Of a stretch of DNA of 64,000 nucleotides, positions 36,601 to 48,600 are shown piece by piece; the stretch's first letter is position 1, and the number at the start of each line of letters is the position of its first letter. Source of the DNA: Utricularia gibba (lineage: Eukaryota; Streptophyta; Magnoliopsida; Lamiales; Lentibulariaceae); contig NEEC01000002.1 of assembly GCA_002189035.1 (NCBI GenBank), positions 5,479,001-5,543,000 of the forward strand. Reading direction: 5' to 3'. The notes beneath the pieces were generated by a model, which made no database searches, was not told where the DNA came from, and saw only the letters and a list, made by a program, of their open reading frames with translations. Made by a program: the position numbers and the translations under genes.

Positions 36601-38096
36601 TATCATATTTGAGAGCGTAGGCCAAGTTAATCTCCCAAAAACGGACATCCAGGTGCCATTACAAAAGCAAAGAAACTTGTTGATGAATTCAATTATCCTG
36701 ATAAGCGCAGTGTACATTCTTTCCCCTTCCATATTGTTACCCTAGAAAATGAAGATGAAACAATGAAAAAACATGCAAGCGTCGAAGCCATAATCAAAAT
36801 TTTGCAATGTCATATAATAAATAGGGTAATCTGCAGATGTCAGAAATTGCACCTCAGGACCATTTGCTGGAGCCAACACAAGAACAGCTTCAGGGTCATG
36901 GCCGAGGTCCTCATTCAATTCTTCTAAAAATGAAACGGTCGACCCCTGATTCACTACTGGACTAAAAACATATTTTATCATAAAATCCGCAGTTTTAGAA
37001 AGCCCATAGTTTAGCATACCAGCAACCTGAATGAGCATCACAACAAATAAGAAAGTGCTGAAAGCGTTTAAAAAAAATGGAGAAAGACTTGTGGGATTTC
37101 TAATAATATTATATTTATAATTAACTGTAACTCACGTCCATTGCTTTCAAAGCAGTAGAAAGTTCAAGTCCATGAATACCAGCTGCAGCAGTGTGATACT
37201 TCACATGAATTGCGGTTCCTTGCTGTTCATATTGTACAGCGTTCTCCATAAACCGTAAAAGCAACTCTTGAATCTACATCCAAATCAAATGGCTCTAAAG
37301 AACAATCATGAAATTGGATAATAGCACCATACTGCTATATAACAAAACAGACAATACCAAATACGTTACTATGAATGCTACATATAAATATAATGTTTTA
37401 TGATTACATTATTACATTTATTGTGTCTGCTGAAGCTAAGTTAAATGTAGAACTTAAATCCTGAAATCCTAAACATGTGCATTGGAAATGAAAACTGCAC
37501 AGGACAAAGCCTATGATTAAATTGGGAATGATCCCAAGTACCTCTTCAAAGCAGTCAGACCACCGCCGTTTAAGAATCCTGTATACAGCCGGTTGACCCT
37601 GCTCCACCACGTAATCATCATTACCTGTAACTCCGAGAGCTTCCTTCAACTCCATCAACATATGTGCCGCCTCTACCACTCTCCCATTCTTCAAATCGTT
37701 GCCAATCTTCGCCAGCTTTCTATCTAACTCCAAAACCACTTGAAAAAATTCAGCAACTTCCGCTTTCTCCCTGGCCTCACGCTTCTTCTGCACAATCTGC
37801 CGAACGACGCTGCCGACATCTTCCTCAATCGATTGACCCGAAACAAGACTTAGAAGCCCGGAGATTTCTTCCGCAATGCGTTCAAAATTGGAAGCGACGT
37901 CTGAACACTGCTCGAAGATGGCGGAGAAGTCTTCCTGGTGGGAGAGAAGGAACGATCGAACCGTGGACTTGATCTTGAGAGAGTGAGCGTCCAGGCGGGA
38001 GATAAGTAGCCGGAGGTCTGGCGCCCATAGTGGAGAAGAAGGAGACTCCGGCACCGGCAGAAGATCCCGGACATCAATCCTGTCGAAAATGTCCAT
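33611..38096 (-). CDS. ZW10: ZW10/MIP1 homolog (kinetochore and NRZ/Dsl1 tethering subunit)
   Basis: Fourteen exons on the minus strand: 38096-37542, 37273-37136, 37026-36853, 36741-36580, 36377-36145, 36075-35929, 35837-35745, 35631-35536, 34983-34856, 34771-34694, 34451-34293, 34104-33957, 33887-33805 and 33727-33611; about 770 residues. ZW10 helps tether Golgi-to-ER vesicles with MAG2/RINT1 and acts at kinetochores. Recognisable segments are RDLLPVPESPSSPLWAPDLR at the N-terminus, FGRLTWPTLSNMIISSFLSK, FASRKRINILAKARNILLES, ANGFQNTHQIKQFE, VRIIWEPLLLHSAYEKS and the end SDFIRAIFTDSPLRKESLL. Two exons (36377-36145 and 34983-34856) are each one base short of keeping frame; both breaks fit loss of one base in a run. 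All splice sites are otherwise intact. It is either an intact gene with sequence errors or a recent pseudogene. Confidence 0.88.
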
Positions 38097-39455: not shown

Positions 39456-40350
39456 GTGACAAATGGATTTGCGTAGCTGCTTAATGGATCTTATTTTTCA
39501 TTTCAACTGGAAGTACTTTTCATCACATGCTTTCATTTGGCCGAAAAAAAAATAGAAATAGAACATCACTTCTTATGTTTAATACTTGTCACTCTTGTGT
39601 GAAATTTAATCATAAGAATTTATTTTTGAGAATTGATTATAAGATTGAAATTATAATTATATTTATTCTTATAAATAATTATACTTAATACTATTATAAA
39701 TAATTTAATTACTTTATTTTTAAATTATAATTTTAATATAAATATATTTAAATTGAAAGTAGTTATATAAATTATAATTTAAAATCATATGGTATTTTAT
39801 AATATAAATGATAAACAATACCTATTTTTTAAAGTTATAAATTTATAAAATATAATTATTAATAATTATATAATTTGTTTATTAAAATTAATTCTCATTT
39901 TTTATACTCATGAATTCATTTTATAATAATCATTTTAAAAAATATTTTCAAATATATATCAACTCTTATTCTATCAAAATTTTAGATTATGTTAAAATCA
40001 ATTTTAAAGTAATTTTTCCAAATGTAACTTCAGTTTTCTCTTTGATCGGTTCTATGGCTTCTTACAAGTGCAACAATGGCAATAGGAGTTAACAAAAGTG
40101 AGCCTAAAAGCCCGTGGAGATCAAAAGCAATTCAATGAGGAAATTAAACAACTTCCTCAAAATCCAAAGTCAACCAATCCTAATATTCTTTTTCAACAAC
40201 GACGAGATAAGAAACCAAAGCCTACAACATAAGAATCCATTCTTTGGGAAAGGAGTTTCTTGATATTGGATCTGCTCTCAAGTGAAACATTTATGTGATT
40301 CAATTCATAGTGAGCCCGTACAGGGCCCACGTTGCTTTAGAAGCCCGGTT
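39456..40350. other. AT-rich intergenic DNA
   Basis: This stretch is strongly AT-rich up to about 40020, then more mixed. No gene, terminal repeats or tRNA is seen. Confidence 0.6.
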
Positions 40351-40368
40351 CCAACAGTATATATAAAA
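40323..40368 (+). promoter_or_regulatory. Promoter of the snoRNA cluster (site II plus TATA box)
   Basis: GGCCCA (site II-like, 40324-40329) followed by the TATA box TATATATAAAA at 40358-40368. Transcription would start near 40395, about 140 bp before the first snoRNA. Site II plus TATA is a common arrangement for plant snoRNA and ribosomal gene promoters. The link to this transcript is inferred from position. Confidence 0.5.
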
Positions 40369-40530
40369 GAGCCCTAGAAGTCTTGGGCGTTCCTGAACTT
40401 TTGAAATCTGTGCCTTGCGGTTCACTCCCTCAGCCGCTCGTGAATTTCAGAAATCTGCCCCGTTCCTTCGTTTTCTTCTGTAGATTAATGTTTCTTGGTT
40501 CGGATTTTTCTCTTTTTCTTGTTTTCGTCT

Positions 40531-40612
40531 GCGTGCAGTGATGATCCAAATTATGTGGACTAGAGTTTCTGATCTTGCAATTGAAGACTAACCCTTGGCT
40601 GTCTGAGTACGC
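40531..40612 (+). ncRNA. C/D-box snoRNA 1 (25S rRNA 2'-O-methylation guide)
   Basis: C box GTGATGA (40538-40544) and D box CTGA (40603-40606) are closed by a 6-bp terminal stem, GCGTGC (40531-40536) with GTACGC (40607-40612). An internal D' box CTGA lies at 40569-40572 and a C'-like TGAAGA at about 40582. The guide before the D box, CCCTTGGCTGT, is complementary to ACAGCCAAGGG of 25S rRNA as I recall it. That would direct methylation of the C paired to the fifth base upstream. The guide before D', GGACTAGAGT, is complementary to ACTCTAGTCC, also in 25S. Box, stem and two guides agree, so this is a strong call. Confidence 0.85.
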
Positions 40613-40713
40613 ATTTTTGTTGTACTAGTTTGCTTTTACTTTTTTATCTTTCTCCAAAATTCGTCTTCTGTCGGGTTTTTCAATCCCATTGCACCCCAAT
40701 TTTCTAGGTATCT

Positions 40714-40797
40714 GGCTTGTGATGATGAACGATTTATCTTAGCGGATTTCAGTGAGATTTTTTCATCAATGATCTGATTGTTACACACACTGAAGCC
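40714..40797 (+). ncRNA. C/D-box snoRNA 2 (candidate)
   Basis: C box GTGATGA (40719-40725) and D box CTGA (40790-40793), with terminal stem GGCTT (40714-40718) and AAGCC (40793-40797). The distance between boxes and the stem fit a C/D snoRNA. The guide before the D box ends TTGTTACACACA; I could not place it on an rRNA with confidence. It lies 101 bp after snoRNA 1 in the same orientation. Confidence 0.65.
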
Positions 40798-40860
40798 TCA
40801 TATAAGTTTCCATTTTTCTGTTATATTAGTTTGGTTAGATTTTTCCATCCACGATATTTT

Positions 40861-40955
40861 TGCAATGATGAGGTTAACCACCATTTTGGTGTTGATGGCA
40901 GTGGATTCATATCCGTGAGCCATTCTTACTAACGACTTCTCCTTCCACTGAGCAT
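40861..40955 (+). ncRNA. C/D-box snoRNA 3 (18S rRNA 3'-end guide)
   Basis: C box ATGATGA (40865-40871) and D box CTGA (40948-40951), with a C'-like GTTGATGG at about 40891. The guide immediately before the D box, ACGACTTCTCCTTCC, is perfectly complementary over 15 bases to GGAAGGAGAAGTCGT near the 3' end of 18S rRNA. The target base paired to the fifth guide position would be an A. The terminal stem is short (TGC with GCA). The long guide match makes this convincing. Confidence 0.8.
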
Positions 40956-40989
40956 TGTAGCTACTGGTCCGTTTTATTTTATTGAAGCA

Positions 40990-41046
40990 GCGTCCATTAC
41001 CAATTCTGGGGGTGACTGGTTCCCCTTGGCATAATGGCTCGGACGC
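40990..41046 (+). ncRNA. Structured RNA hairpin, possible H/ACA snoRNA arm
   Basis: GCGTCC (40990-40995) pairs with GGACGC (41041-41046), and inside it ATTA with TAAT, CCAA with TTGG and GGGG with CCCC form a bulged stem of about 18 bp capped by a 10-base loop. A candidate ACA box lies at 41114-41116, giving a 131-base H/ACA-like span (40989-41119). No ANANNA hinge was found, so the H/ACA label is tentative. Confidence 0.35.
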
Positions 41047-41119
41047 AAGATGGCATTGTGGTTATCCTGATTCATTGGCTTTTCGATTCATGCTTTTGGA
41101 TCCTGGAAACGCCACAAAT

Positions 41120-42040
41120 ATCCTGCTTAAATATGCACAAATTGATTTCGTTGCTTTTCCAATGCGTCGTTTATTACTGGTTAACTCTCACTAAAAGAGT
41201 GAGGGATTTTTATGTTTCAAAAGCATAAACTATAAGCGGCACCTTTTCTTTCACCATGATACTACCTGTCTCCTGTGACATCTCTGTTTCTCTTTCAGCG
41301 CATAACATCAAGCATGATGAATCTGAAAGCTCGAGTCTGGACTTGTAGGGATCAAGGTAACATGCCGTCTGTTTTCGCCCATCGAGAGCAACTAGTCTTT
41401 TTAGCAACCTGACGTGTTGGAGCACTTAAGGCGTGTGTTGCTGTGTTGGTTTTTGGTGTGTTAAAACCATTTGGAATTCTTCAAGGGCATGATAACTCAC
41501 ATACCGTAAACGCTTGTACATGCAGTGAATTTGGACAGCTGATTCCAATGATATGCCTAGGAGCCTTCATGCTACAACTTCATCCATCCTTCGACAGCTC
41601 TAGCCAGGACTCTCTACTGACGTCACCAGCGTGTTTTCGGGTGCATCAAAACATGGCCATTGAGGAGGAGAGCCATGCTTTTTCCGGTGACAACAAAGTT
41701 TTTCCGGCGGTCCTTGGATGGTACTCCGGCGTCTATCCCCGCTTCTAGCACTTCATCGCGCATTCAGTAGATGCCTGCCGCCGGTGATTGACATGTGTGA
41801 CTTGTATTATTACTATTAATATTTGTATTTAGAGTTACTGAGTGACTTTTATTTTACATTTTAATTGTAATATAAATTTATTTTTAGAGTAAATAGAATA
41901 AGACGGGATGCGACTAGGGCTACGCGGACCCAATAGACAGTGTGTTTGGATCAGAGGATTCCTACTGCTTGGGTTCTGCGATAATCCTTTATTTTTTTTT
42001 TTATCGGGTCGTCAAAGAGCATAAAATAAGTTAACTTGCG
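41120..42040. other. 3' part of the snoRNA transcription unit and ATXR3 upstream region
   Basis: It contains a small hairpin (CTCACT with AGTGAG, 41187-41203) and open frames on both strands without known domains, including 41443-41748. It may be the 3' end of the snoRNA host transcript, followed by the ATXR3 promoter near 41900-42000. Confidence 0.45.
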
Positions 42041-42247: not shown

Positions 42248-42601
42248 GGCCAACTTGTAAGTCTCAGATTCAAAACCCTAAGACCGCCTGGAGAAGTTTG
42301 TTTCTCTTTCCGGTTGACATATCAATCGTTTCAATTATTCGGTGGGGATTTGACGGGTGTTATTGCTGCTCCAAATCCGAGAGCTCTCCAACCTTTTACG
42401 GTAGTGTGGGGGTTTAATTTTATTTGGGTTTTTGGGTAATGGTGTTTCAAATGATTTTGATCTTTTGCAGGTGGTTTTCGTGGTAGCAGGATACGAGAGG
42501 GAGAGCGTACTGGAAATTGAGGTATGAGCATACATAGCCCTGGGGAAGACGAGGATTAGTTATCGTTTGTTGGTGGGGAAAGAGTTCTCTTGGGGCTTTC
42601 C

Positions 42602-45600
42602 ATGGGCGATGGAGGTGTTGCATGTGCGCCTTCTCCTGCCATGGATAAGTTTTCAGTTTGCGGGGGTAGCACCAGCGGCAATACCAAAGTGGGTACTTCT
42701 TCAAAATCCATTAAGCTGGTGAAAGTCGTTAAAGTGGTGAAGGTGGTCAAAGTGAAGAAGAAGATGAAAGTTAAGAAGGATAAGGGCAGTGACGCTGGGA
42801 CGAAAAATCCAACAAGCGTCAATAATGACAATGGTGAGGGCACTTCTAATGGTGATGCTTGCACTGGTGGCAATGCGGAGGAAATGGAAGAGGGTGAGCT
42901 GGGGACTCTACCAGTTGAGAATGGGCAACTTCCTCTAGAAAAGGACCCAGGATGTTATGAGATTAAGAGTGAGCTTGAGCAGGGTGAATCTGTCTCCGGT
43001 CAGTGCCAGAAAAGTGTTGACTTAGACAAGCGAGATAGCAGGACATCTACTGATGACTTGGAGAAGGGGGAGTTTATTCCGGATAGATGTCACAGAAGTG
43101 ATTCTGTAAATAGAATTGATGAACATGGCTTGCCAAAGGCACGGAGATATGATACTGTAAGAGATGAAGGTTCTCGAAGTGATCGTGAACGGAGGGCATC
43201 ATTGATAATGAAATGATCCCGCATTCATCGTGTAAGCATTCTTATGAAAAAGAATTAGGCAGAAGTCCGCATGAAAGGAAGTTTTCTTCCAGATATCTAG
43301 GTGAGAAGACCCCTTGGACATGTTCCAAAGTGGGGGAAGAAAATTCGATGAAGAATGAACAGAACGACACTAAAGGTCATGGAAGGGAATACGTCTCTAG
43401 CAATCGTTTGAAACGTAATGCTGATGATTCTGTCAGTGTCACCAGGAAACACCACACTGGCCATGAGGAGCATTCTAGTTCAAAAACCCGAAGACTTTCG
43501 AATGATAGCAGCCGCTCTTCTTTTTATTCAGATCACCGTTCTGGAAAGTCTGTGGAAAGGCCATTTAAGACAGTTGCTCCTCCATCTAGGAATGCTCAAT
43601 CAGATAAGTATTCCTCAAAATATATAGAGCCTTTGAAAGGTGGTCATGACAAGCACACTAGCAGTCCACATAATCCTCAGAGGTCTCCACGAGATCGGGC
43701 TCAGTTCCACGATTACCGAGACCGCAGCCCAAACTTTTATGAGTCCCATGCTGATCAGAGACATCTGCATGATAGAAATGGGTCTCAGGAGCACACCCGG
43801 CGTCATGACAGCAGCAGGTACAGAAGTCCAAGTTATGTCGAGAGGTCATCTCGTGATCATGGACGAAACCGTGATGGAAGGGAGAAGACACCAACTTCTT
43901 CAGATCGGTCACCATGTTCCAGAGGGCAGTATAGTGATCAGTGGGAAGCACCTAGGAAATCTGGTTCTGGGAGAAGCGGCATATTCAAGGAACCAAGGGG
44001 TCGGGAGGAAAGTGTGAGTCAAGAGAATCAAAGACATCCAAGGAATTTCAAGTCAAGGGAAATGTTGAAAATAGAGATTCCTGCTCTGGAAAACCACTTT
44101 CTCATGACGATGTGACTCCAGTCTTTGATAATGCAGAATATTCCCAGGAAAATGAAGTTACTGTGGAGACAGCTCCCATGGAAGTAGACATGGAAATCTG
44201 CAACACTCCACCTCACGTCCCGGCATCAATGGATACCACTTCTGGAAAGTGGTACTACCTGGATCACTTTGGGATGGAGTGCGGTCCTTCTAATTTGTGT
44301 GATCTGAAAACACTTGTGGATGAAGGATATCTCGTCTCTGATCACCTCATTAAACATTCAGATAGTGATAGGTGGGTAACAGTGGAAAAAGCAGTCTCTC
44401 CAGTGGTTACTGGAATTTCCCTTTCAGTTGTTTCAGACATTGTTACTCAGCTTGCATCTCCTCCTGAGGCTCCTGGCAATCTCCTGGAGGATAGTGGAAA
44501 CATGATGTGTGTGGACGAAATCCTGGGATCTCATCTTGGTATCTCACCAAACAGCCACTTTTCGGACATCAGACCTTTGGAAGATTACCAAATTGACAAC
44601 AGAGTTGGAGCGCTCTTAGGCGATGCTAATTTAATAAGTGGGAAGGAAGTTGAGATTCTTGAAGGTCTGCATGCTATTCTGCAGTATAACTCATTGTGAC
44701 ATTGCATGCTTTGAGTTGGCTTTTAGGGCCTTTTTGAGATTTTTGAATGCTGCAATCCATTGCATTAATATAACTCATTGTGATATATGTATTTTCTAGA
44801 AAATAAGCCATTTAACTGATTTTCTAATTTTGTGGTCGTAAAACAAGGTGTCTTGATATTGTGTATGAGCAGTATTTCGTTCATGCTTTTCAAAGACCAA
44901 CTTTCATTGCTTGAATTCTAATTATATGTATTCTGTCTTGCAGACTTGCTGAGTGTCAAATATGGACAGGGGGGATGGGAGAGAGCACTAAATATTGAAG
45001 GTAGTTAGTTATCCCTAATTGTTGTTACCTTTCCTTTGGGTATTACTTCTTCATTTAAGAACTTGTTTCGTAACTGTTTGTCCATCAAGCAATGCAATTG
45101 GGTGCTTAGCTGGATTCACTAATTAGTACTACCTTGGTTCATGTTGACATCACTATCTTTAGTCTTTGCCTTGCAGTGCTGCAGGATTTGTTGTAGTGAT
45201 GCTTTAGATCTTGCTTGTAGTACAAAGACTTTATGCTGTATTTTCTTTTTATATGCAGTCTTTGTTTATATCTAGCAAAAAGTTTTGTACTTTATTCGTC
45301 AGGGATGTGGGGCTAGTTGTTAGTTTCTAGTGAAAGGGAAGTAAGAGGCGAAATAATGATTGTATCTCTAACCGCAGAACTACTTTCTGAGGACTCCAAG
45401 TCAATCTCAGATATTAATTTCTCCGATGAGATGGATAGTGCGTCTCTTTGTGGTGGCACATCACAGAGTTTTAATGGGAAATGGCCTTGTAAGGGGTGTG
45501 ACTGGAAGTGGAATGAGGAAGCTAATCAGGAACTATGCTGGAAGAAGAAGCTCGTTCTAAATGATGGATATCCACTGTGCCAAGCCCTCAAGTCTGGCAG

Positions 45601-48600
45601 TGAAGATCCCCGTTGGGAGCAAAAGGATGATTTATACTACCCATCACAGAGCAAAAGGCTTGACCTGCCATATTGGGCTTTTACTTGTCCTGATGACTTG
45701 GTTGATCCCTATGGTACAAACAAATCAATGCAGAATAGGTCTGTTGCTGCTCGAGGAGTGAAAGGATTAATGCTTCCTGTGATCAGGATTAATGCGTGTG
45801 TGGTGAAGGACTATGGGTCTTTTGTGTCTGAACCCCGTGGTCAGGTCAGGAGTAAAGACAGATTTTCTTCGAAGCTTCCACGAACAGTTTCAACAGTTGA
45901 TGTGCAGAGGTTATCAATGGATGGTCGGGTAGATGTCTCTCATGAAATGGATTCAGTGGATTCCCAGGAGAAGAGTATATCCATGGATGTTGAAAGGAAG
46001 CCTCTTTGTAAACTAGATGATCTAAAGTTGCCATTAGGTGATTGGTATTATCTTGATGGTGCTGGACAGGAAAGAGGACCATTTACTTTCTCAAAGTTGC
46101 AGATGATGGCTGAAGAAGGTGCAATTCAAATGCACAGCAGTGCTTTTCGAAAAAGTGATAATATTTGGATTCCGGTTTCTGCACAGACCGAGAGCAATGA
46201 AATCAGCAAGGATGAGAAAAAAAGCACCAGTTCCGATTCTTTCTCAGAGATGGGAGCTGTTGCATTGACTGAAGACCATAGAACTGCTAGTTTCCATGGC
46301 TTGCATCCTCAGTTTATTGGATATACACGAGGGAAGCTTCATGAACTAGTAATGAAGTCTTACAAGAGTCGGGAGCTTGCTGCTGCCATAAATGAAGTTC
46401 TTGATCCTTGGCTCAGTGCCAGACAACCGAAGAAGGAAATTGAGAAGTACACTCACAGCACAGGTATTATTCCTCTCCCTCAAGTTACCATGCAGGGTTT
46501 CTTTTTCCCATGAATACCACATTCAGTTTCATGTTTCTTGAATAACATGAAAAAAATATTGCTCCTTCGCATCTCTTGTGAATTTTTCATGCCTTTTTAT
46601 GTTGATCTTGTTTCCATTATGATCTAATTGGCTTTTAAACATTTCCAGTTTTGTTCATGGTTTGTATTTGATTTTGAAAAAGCAATATTGATTTGCAGAT
46701 TGGAAAGCAGCCAGGATTCATGGCTTTGGTGGTGATGATTATGATGACGATGACTTAGTGTTTTCTCACTCTGTCGACTTGGAATATGATGAGTTGTGTG
46801 CGAAATCTACCTTAAAGACTGATGATGAACTATACTCAGATTTTAAGCAGGAAAGCTGGGCTATGCTTGATAGACATGTACTCGCTAGGGTACTTCACTT
46901 CCTGAGAGGTGATGCTAAGTCACTTTTTTATGCTTCTTTGACGTGCAAGCGCTGGCAGTCAGTGGTTACTCTTTATAAAGGAATCTCTAGACGGGTTGAC
47001 TTTTGCTGTATTGGCACTAATTGCTCTGACATTCTGGTCATGAAAATAATGGTATGTTATATTTTTGTTTTGCAATCTCGTTTCTGTTGAAGTTAAAAGT
47101 TACAATTTTTTTCATTGTGTCCTGAAAACATATTATTTCACTGTGCAGAACGATTATAACAAAGAAAAGGTTACATCCTTAGTGTTGCGTGGTTGCACTG
47201 CTGTCAGTTACAACATAGTTGAGGAGTTTCTACCGTCATTTCCAAACTTATCAGTTATAGATATTAGAGGTTGTTCCCAGCTTGATGATTTGGTGCCCAA
47301 GTTTTCTAACATCAATTGGGTTAGAAGTCGTAGTTCTTATTCGAAACACCGTAGTGTTAATCACTTATCCTCTAATGAGACGGATGACTCCAGTGGCCTT
47401 AGGGAATATTTAGAAAGCTCTGATAGGAGAGACTCAGCAACTCAGTTGTTTCGCCGAAGTTTGTATAAAAGATCGAAGCTCTTTGATGCTCGGAAGTCTT
47501 CGGCTATCCTGTATAGGGATGCTGAGTTAAGGCGCTTGGCTGTTAAAAAGTCTGGAAATGCTTACAGGAAATTTGAGAAGTATATAGTGGCAAGTCTAAG
47601 AGATATCATGCGAGAGAATTCCTTTGAGTTTTTTGAGACCAAGGTGCTGTAAGAATATTTAATTTGATTAATGTTCATCGATCATATGGTCTTTGGATTT
47701 TGGTATTTATTTTCCTTTTTTTTTTGCTTAGATTTCCTTTATTGAGGAAAGAATGAGAAATGGCTATTATGCTAGTCGTGGTATAATCTCTGTCAAGGAT
47801 GATATCAGCCGTATGTGCCGGGATGCAATTAGGTAAAACACACTTATATATGGTTACTCTTTCTGCATTTTGTTGATAAAATGTTCGCATTGTCGGATGG
47901 TTCACTAGAAATCTTGTCCTTCATATTATATATTTGTATAGTGGTAGCAACTTAAAAATGTGGTGCATAATCTGGGGTGTATTGTTATGCGCTGTTGACA
48001 TGGTATACATGTATTGTGCTTCAGAGTTAATACTGTTTAAGATGAAAGAGGAATTTTACTTGGTTTTTTATTTTTATGCGTGTTCTTTACTCTACGGATT
48101 CTGGTGGAAGTGTACCATAAATAAGATGAATTTTGTGCAGAATAAAGAATAGGGTAGATGCAAGAGAGATGAATCGTGTTGTGTCATTATTTCTACAACT
48201 AGTCACAAGTTTGGATAAGGGCTCAAAGTTGGATTATGGACGAGATGCTGTGAAAGATCTTAAAGATGAATCACGCTTGGGATTTTCTTCTGTTGCCTCA
48301 AAGTATAAGCAGATTACGAGTAAGGCATTTGAAAGGAAACAGTCCTGCAGGAGCACTGGCAATCATCCCAATGGTCTTTTTGATTCTGCAGACTATGCTT
48401 CCGATCGTGAAATCCGAAGGCGGTTATCCAAATTAAACAAAAAATCATTGGATTCTGGAAGTGACACATCTGATGATTTTGACAAGTCATCTGATGCAAG
48501 TAGGTTTGACAGTGAGAGTTCTGTTTCAGAAACAGACAATGATATTGAGTTGCCATCTGAAGGCGTTTGTGAATCACGAGGGGAGGCATTCTTTGTATCT

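Follow-up and report, generated by a model that had tools for sequence, protein, structure and literature searches.

The question raised by this locus is whether a short tract of the window, by which is meant the whole 64 kb stretch of DNA that was analysed, holds a polycistronic cluster of snoRNA genes with a promoter of its own and, if so, which guide RNAs the cluster encodes. Small nucleolar RNAs (snoRNAs) direct the chemical modification of rRNA. The entire window was scanned with the Rfam 15 covariance models (4227 families) at their curated cut-offs. Exactly four matches exceeded the cut-offs, all on the + strand and all inside the interval singled out by a preliminary description of this DNA. 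A fifth member, snoR137, had been overlooked in that description and was found only in a permissive Rfam scan. Together with the promoter elements, the members of the cluster are as follows.

40324..40329, - strand: site II element TGGGCC, promoter-like (pattern match; putative function)
40358..40367, + strand: TATA box, TATATAAA / TATATATAAA, approximately 160 bases 5' of the first snoRNA (pattern match)
40529..40614, + strand: C/D snoRNA snoZ157/R69/R10 (RF00333), unit 1; 70.6 bits, cut-off 55, E 2e-13
40713..40798, + strand: C/D snoRNA snoR11/Z151 (RF00349), unit 2; 85.1 bits, cut-off 50, E 5e-15
40859..40956, + strand: C/D snoRNA snoZ152/R70/R12 (RF00350), unit 3; 65.5 bits, cut-off 50, E 2.8e-10
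40999..41123, + strand: H/ACA snoRNA snoR80 (RF01224); 93.1 bits, cut-off 45, E 2.1e-14
41166..41283, + strand: decayed H/ACA snoRNA, snoR137 relic (RF01433); 34.3 bits in the permissive scan, below the cut-off of 44

The locus is very probably an independent RNA polymerase II polycistron of three C/D snoRNAs and one H/ACA snoRNA. Such a gene would start from the TATA/site II promoter at approximately 40320-40367, and one precursor would carry the three C/D guides (Z157/R10, R11/Z151 and Z152/R12) and the H/ACA guide snoR80. The window locus is one of two duplicate clusters, the fifth member, snoR137, having been lost here and kept in the other cluster on C304. The cluster is of a mixed C/D and H/ACA type, with four intact genes and a fifth that has decayed. 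It is ordinary in that the locus is new while the families and the gene arrangement are known; its single feature of mild novelty is that, once the cluster had been duplicated, snoR137 decayed in one of the two copies.

The preliminary description had placed three C/D units in a single orientation within approximately 430 bp, and had named a scan with Rfam covariance models as a check. The scan agrees with it, assigning all three units to plant C/D snoRNA families above their cut-offs with E-values (5e-15, 2e-13 and 2.8e-10 in the 64 kb scan) far beyond chance, and the ends originally given for the units (40531-40612, 40714-40797 and 40861-40955) lie 1-3 bases from those of the covariance models. 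Pattern matching located the C boxes (RTGATGA) of Z157/R10, R11 and Z152/R12 at 40538, 40719/40722 and 40865, and their D boxes (CTGA) at 40603, 40790 and 40948, respectively. In unit 1 the C box reads GTGATGA and CTGA occurs both at 40569, as D', and at 40603, as D; the C, D' and D boxes previously described for this unit therefore stand, whereas the stem of 6 bp attributed to it does not, the terminal stem being 7 bp. The terminal stems of R11 and Z152/R12 comprise 5 and 3 pairs, that of Z152 being weak. The window copies of RF00333, RF00349, RF00350 and RF01224 all match their families over the full length above the curated cut-offs, and their divergence is ordinary.

With 2000 shuffled guides as a control, the guides were paired with generic plant rRNA segments, which stood in for the species' own rRNA. 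Pairings of 15, 13, 12, 11 and 11 bp with these segments were obtained. The longest belongs to the D guide of unit 3 (Z152/R12), which pairs with the 3' end of generic plant 18S over an unbroken 15 bp with no G-U; none of the 2000 shuffles reached 15, in keeping with the perfect 15-base match to the 18S 3' end claimed beforehand. The two 25S guides ascribed to unit 1 were also recovered against the generic plant 25S segments, the D' guide pairing over 12 bp (two G-U) and the D guide over 11 bp, lengths equalled by 36 and 50 of 2000 shuffled guides, respectively. In unit 2 (R11), the D guide forms 11 bp with generic plant 25S, and a stretch 5' of a possible D' box forms approximately 13 bp with the same 25S region.

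According to the D+5 rule, the target of unit 3 would be an A whose distance from the 3' end of 18S is 51 bases, corresponding to A1758 if 18S is 1808 nt in length, and 18S A1758 is the predicted target of this D guide, assigned by counting only. A1758 of Arabidopsis 18S was found to be methylated by RiboMeth-seq, in a table that gives this position to SnoR23 and gives 25S A945 and A2127 to SnoR12, with SnoR11 absent (PMC8053127). Since A1758 goes to SnoR23 there, names cannot be equated across catalogues; the transfer of Arabidopsis target numbers by way of snoRNA names was dropped because of this mismatch between the Rfam names and those of the RiboMeth-seq table, and only A1758 is therefore claimed. 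A search of the literature under the Rfam names of these snoRNA families found nothing.

Exact 18S and 25S patterns gave no match in the genome assembly, where rRNA is masked or decayed, and a BLAST-type genome search for rDNA recovered only a decayed copy in which 18S is mostly masked. In this copy, on C1 (2502-3500 of the piece read), the 18S 3' end almost directly abuts 25S-like sequence, and several C-to-T and G-to-A changes are present relative to generic plant 18S.

The promoter described 5' of the units, comprising a site II element and a TATA box, was found at 40324 (- strand) and 40358-40367. Just past the TATA box, at 40370, lies a telo-box-like heptamer, AGCCCTA, which is common to the C304 duplicate, and a AAAGCCCTAG / AGAGCCCTAG stretch near the TATA box is likewise common to the two clusters. 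No exact telo-box was detected by pattern matching in either snoRNA cluster. Site II together with TATA is the promoter signature of plant polycistronic snoRNA clusters, and plant polycistronic snoRNA genes are mostly independent Pol II units in which a single precursor is cut and trimmed (PMC4660826). In the TeloSII clusters of Arabidopsis and rice, as in the window cluster, several snoRNAs share an orientation downstream of site II and TATA elements, the spacers are non-coding, the members come from catalogued families, and the genome carries duplicates of the cluster (PMC4660826, PMC5122169). The window cluster differs from them in being without an exact telo-box and in that one member, snoR137, has decayed. 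From the families present and these plant precedents, we infer that the members of the cluster may share transcription and processing and may direct modification of their targets.

The structured hairpin reported 3' of the C/D units proved to be a misreading of the H/ACA snoRNA snoR80, whose score of 93.1 bits exceeds the cut-off of 45. In the Rfam alignment, the position of the ACA box, expected three bases from the 3' end, is occupied by AUA in the window, in which it differs from RF01224, and by AGA in the duplicate (2429-2556 of C304:2766000-2772000), so that the 3' box of snoR80 is non-canonical in both copies. Variants of the ACA box are known in other H/ACA RNAs. On single-sequence folding, the window snoRNAs other than the snoR137 relic were no better than shuffles, as is usual for C/D snoRNAs; the result is uninformative for snoR80.

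Judged from its sequence, the window snoR137 is a relic and not a working member of the cluster. The C304 copy is intact, with a score of 102.7 bits against the covariance model cut-off of 44 that the window copy falls below. In the model alignment all seven pairs of the basal stem of the 3' hairpin are broken in the window copy, and deletions of 11 and 9 bases are present in this hairpin relative to the intact duplicate. With RF01433 the relic shares its position after snoR80 and the conserved right arm (CTACCTGTCTCCTG), both of which are common to the intact duplicate, but its score is below the cut-off and the basal stem of the 3' hairpin is gone. The two copies were compared by separate alignment, since a global alignment of the clusters misplaces snoR137 owing to a difference in the length of the preceding spacer; the local alignment score was 80, compared with 30 for the best of 500 shuffles. 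The spacer between snoR80 and snoR137 is approximately 200 bases in the C304 cluster and 42 in the window.

One further cluster is present in the genome, on C304 (2766000-2772000), and contains the same five snoRNAs in identical order. Genome-wide family searches placed snoR11 at two positions and snoR137 at two positions, which are the two clusters. With identity counted over all alignment columns, the window and C304 copies are 94% identical for Z157, 94% for R11, 91% for Z152 and 84% for snoR80, compared with 28, 48, 74 and 62% for the spacers and 40% for the promoter/leader; it follows that selection kept the RNAs and not the spacers. There is a low probability that the window cluster consists of unexpressed pseudogenes in the course of being lost, all of the work being done by the C304 cluster and the loss of snoR137 being the first sign. 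The broken snoR137 would fit such a history, as would the single site II element detected by pattern matching, compared with three in the duplicate. The other four snoRNAs, however, retain their boxes and guides, and their conservation (84-94%) while the spacers diverged (to 28-74%) indicates that constraint persisted long after the duplication.

A further alternative concerns the gene that lies downstream of the cluster.

42590-47652, + strand: exons of an ATXR3/SDG2-type histone H3K4 methyltransferase (GYF_ATXR3 domain, E 2.5e-31)

The ATXR3 reading frame begins near 42603 on the same strand as the cluster, and a splice-site-like TTTCAG occurs between them at approximately 41299. Both would suit a cluster hosted in the ATXR3 5' leader, or in a leader intron, from which the snoRNAs would be freed when the pre-mRNA is spliced or processed. 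ATXR3 is nevertheless an unlikely host, and markedly so. The C304 cluster, with intact snoRNAs and site II elements of its own, is not beside ATXR3, which is single-copy, with one match in the genome. Judged by eye, the neighbours of the C304 cluster resemble genes for a transporter and for a glycosidase-like protein, and ATXR3 was not recognised by eye in the stretches of flanking sequence that were read. In addition, ATXR3 has its own leader, containing an exact telo-box, AAACCCTAA, at 42273, approximately 1 kb past the snoR137 relic. An independent TATA/site II unit is favoured because the intact C304 copy does not adjoin this single-copy gene, which has its own 5' leader.

The remnant hairpin of snoR137 was more stable than 200 of 200 shuffles on single-sequence folding (z -3.06), and snoRNA-miRNA dicistrons have been described in Arabidopsis (PMC4660826). 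That the window snoR137 took on a new role after the duplication, its refolded remnant yielding a hairpin-derived small RNA, is extremely improbable. A tRNA-snoRNA dicistron was rejected because no tRNA gene was found in the 64 kb window.

The finding contributes a pair of correctly positioned five-gene snoRNA clusters to a plant genome; annotation built on proteins would overlook such loci. It leaves existing knowledge of snoRNAs unchanged, and provides a clean, small example of duplicate clusters losing one guide RNA unequally. Elsewhere in the window, at 37404-38096 on the - strand, lies an N-terminal exon of a ZW10-type vesicle tethering/kinetochore protein with a Zw10_N domain (E 5.1e-10).
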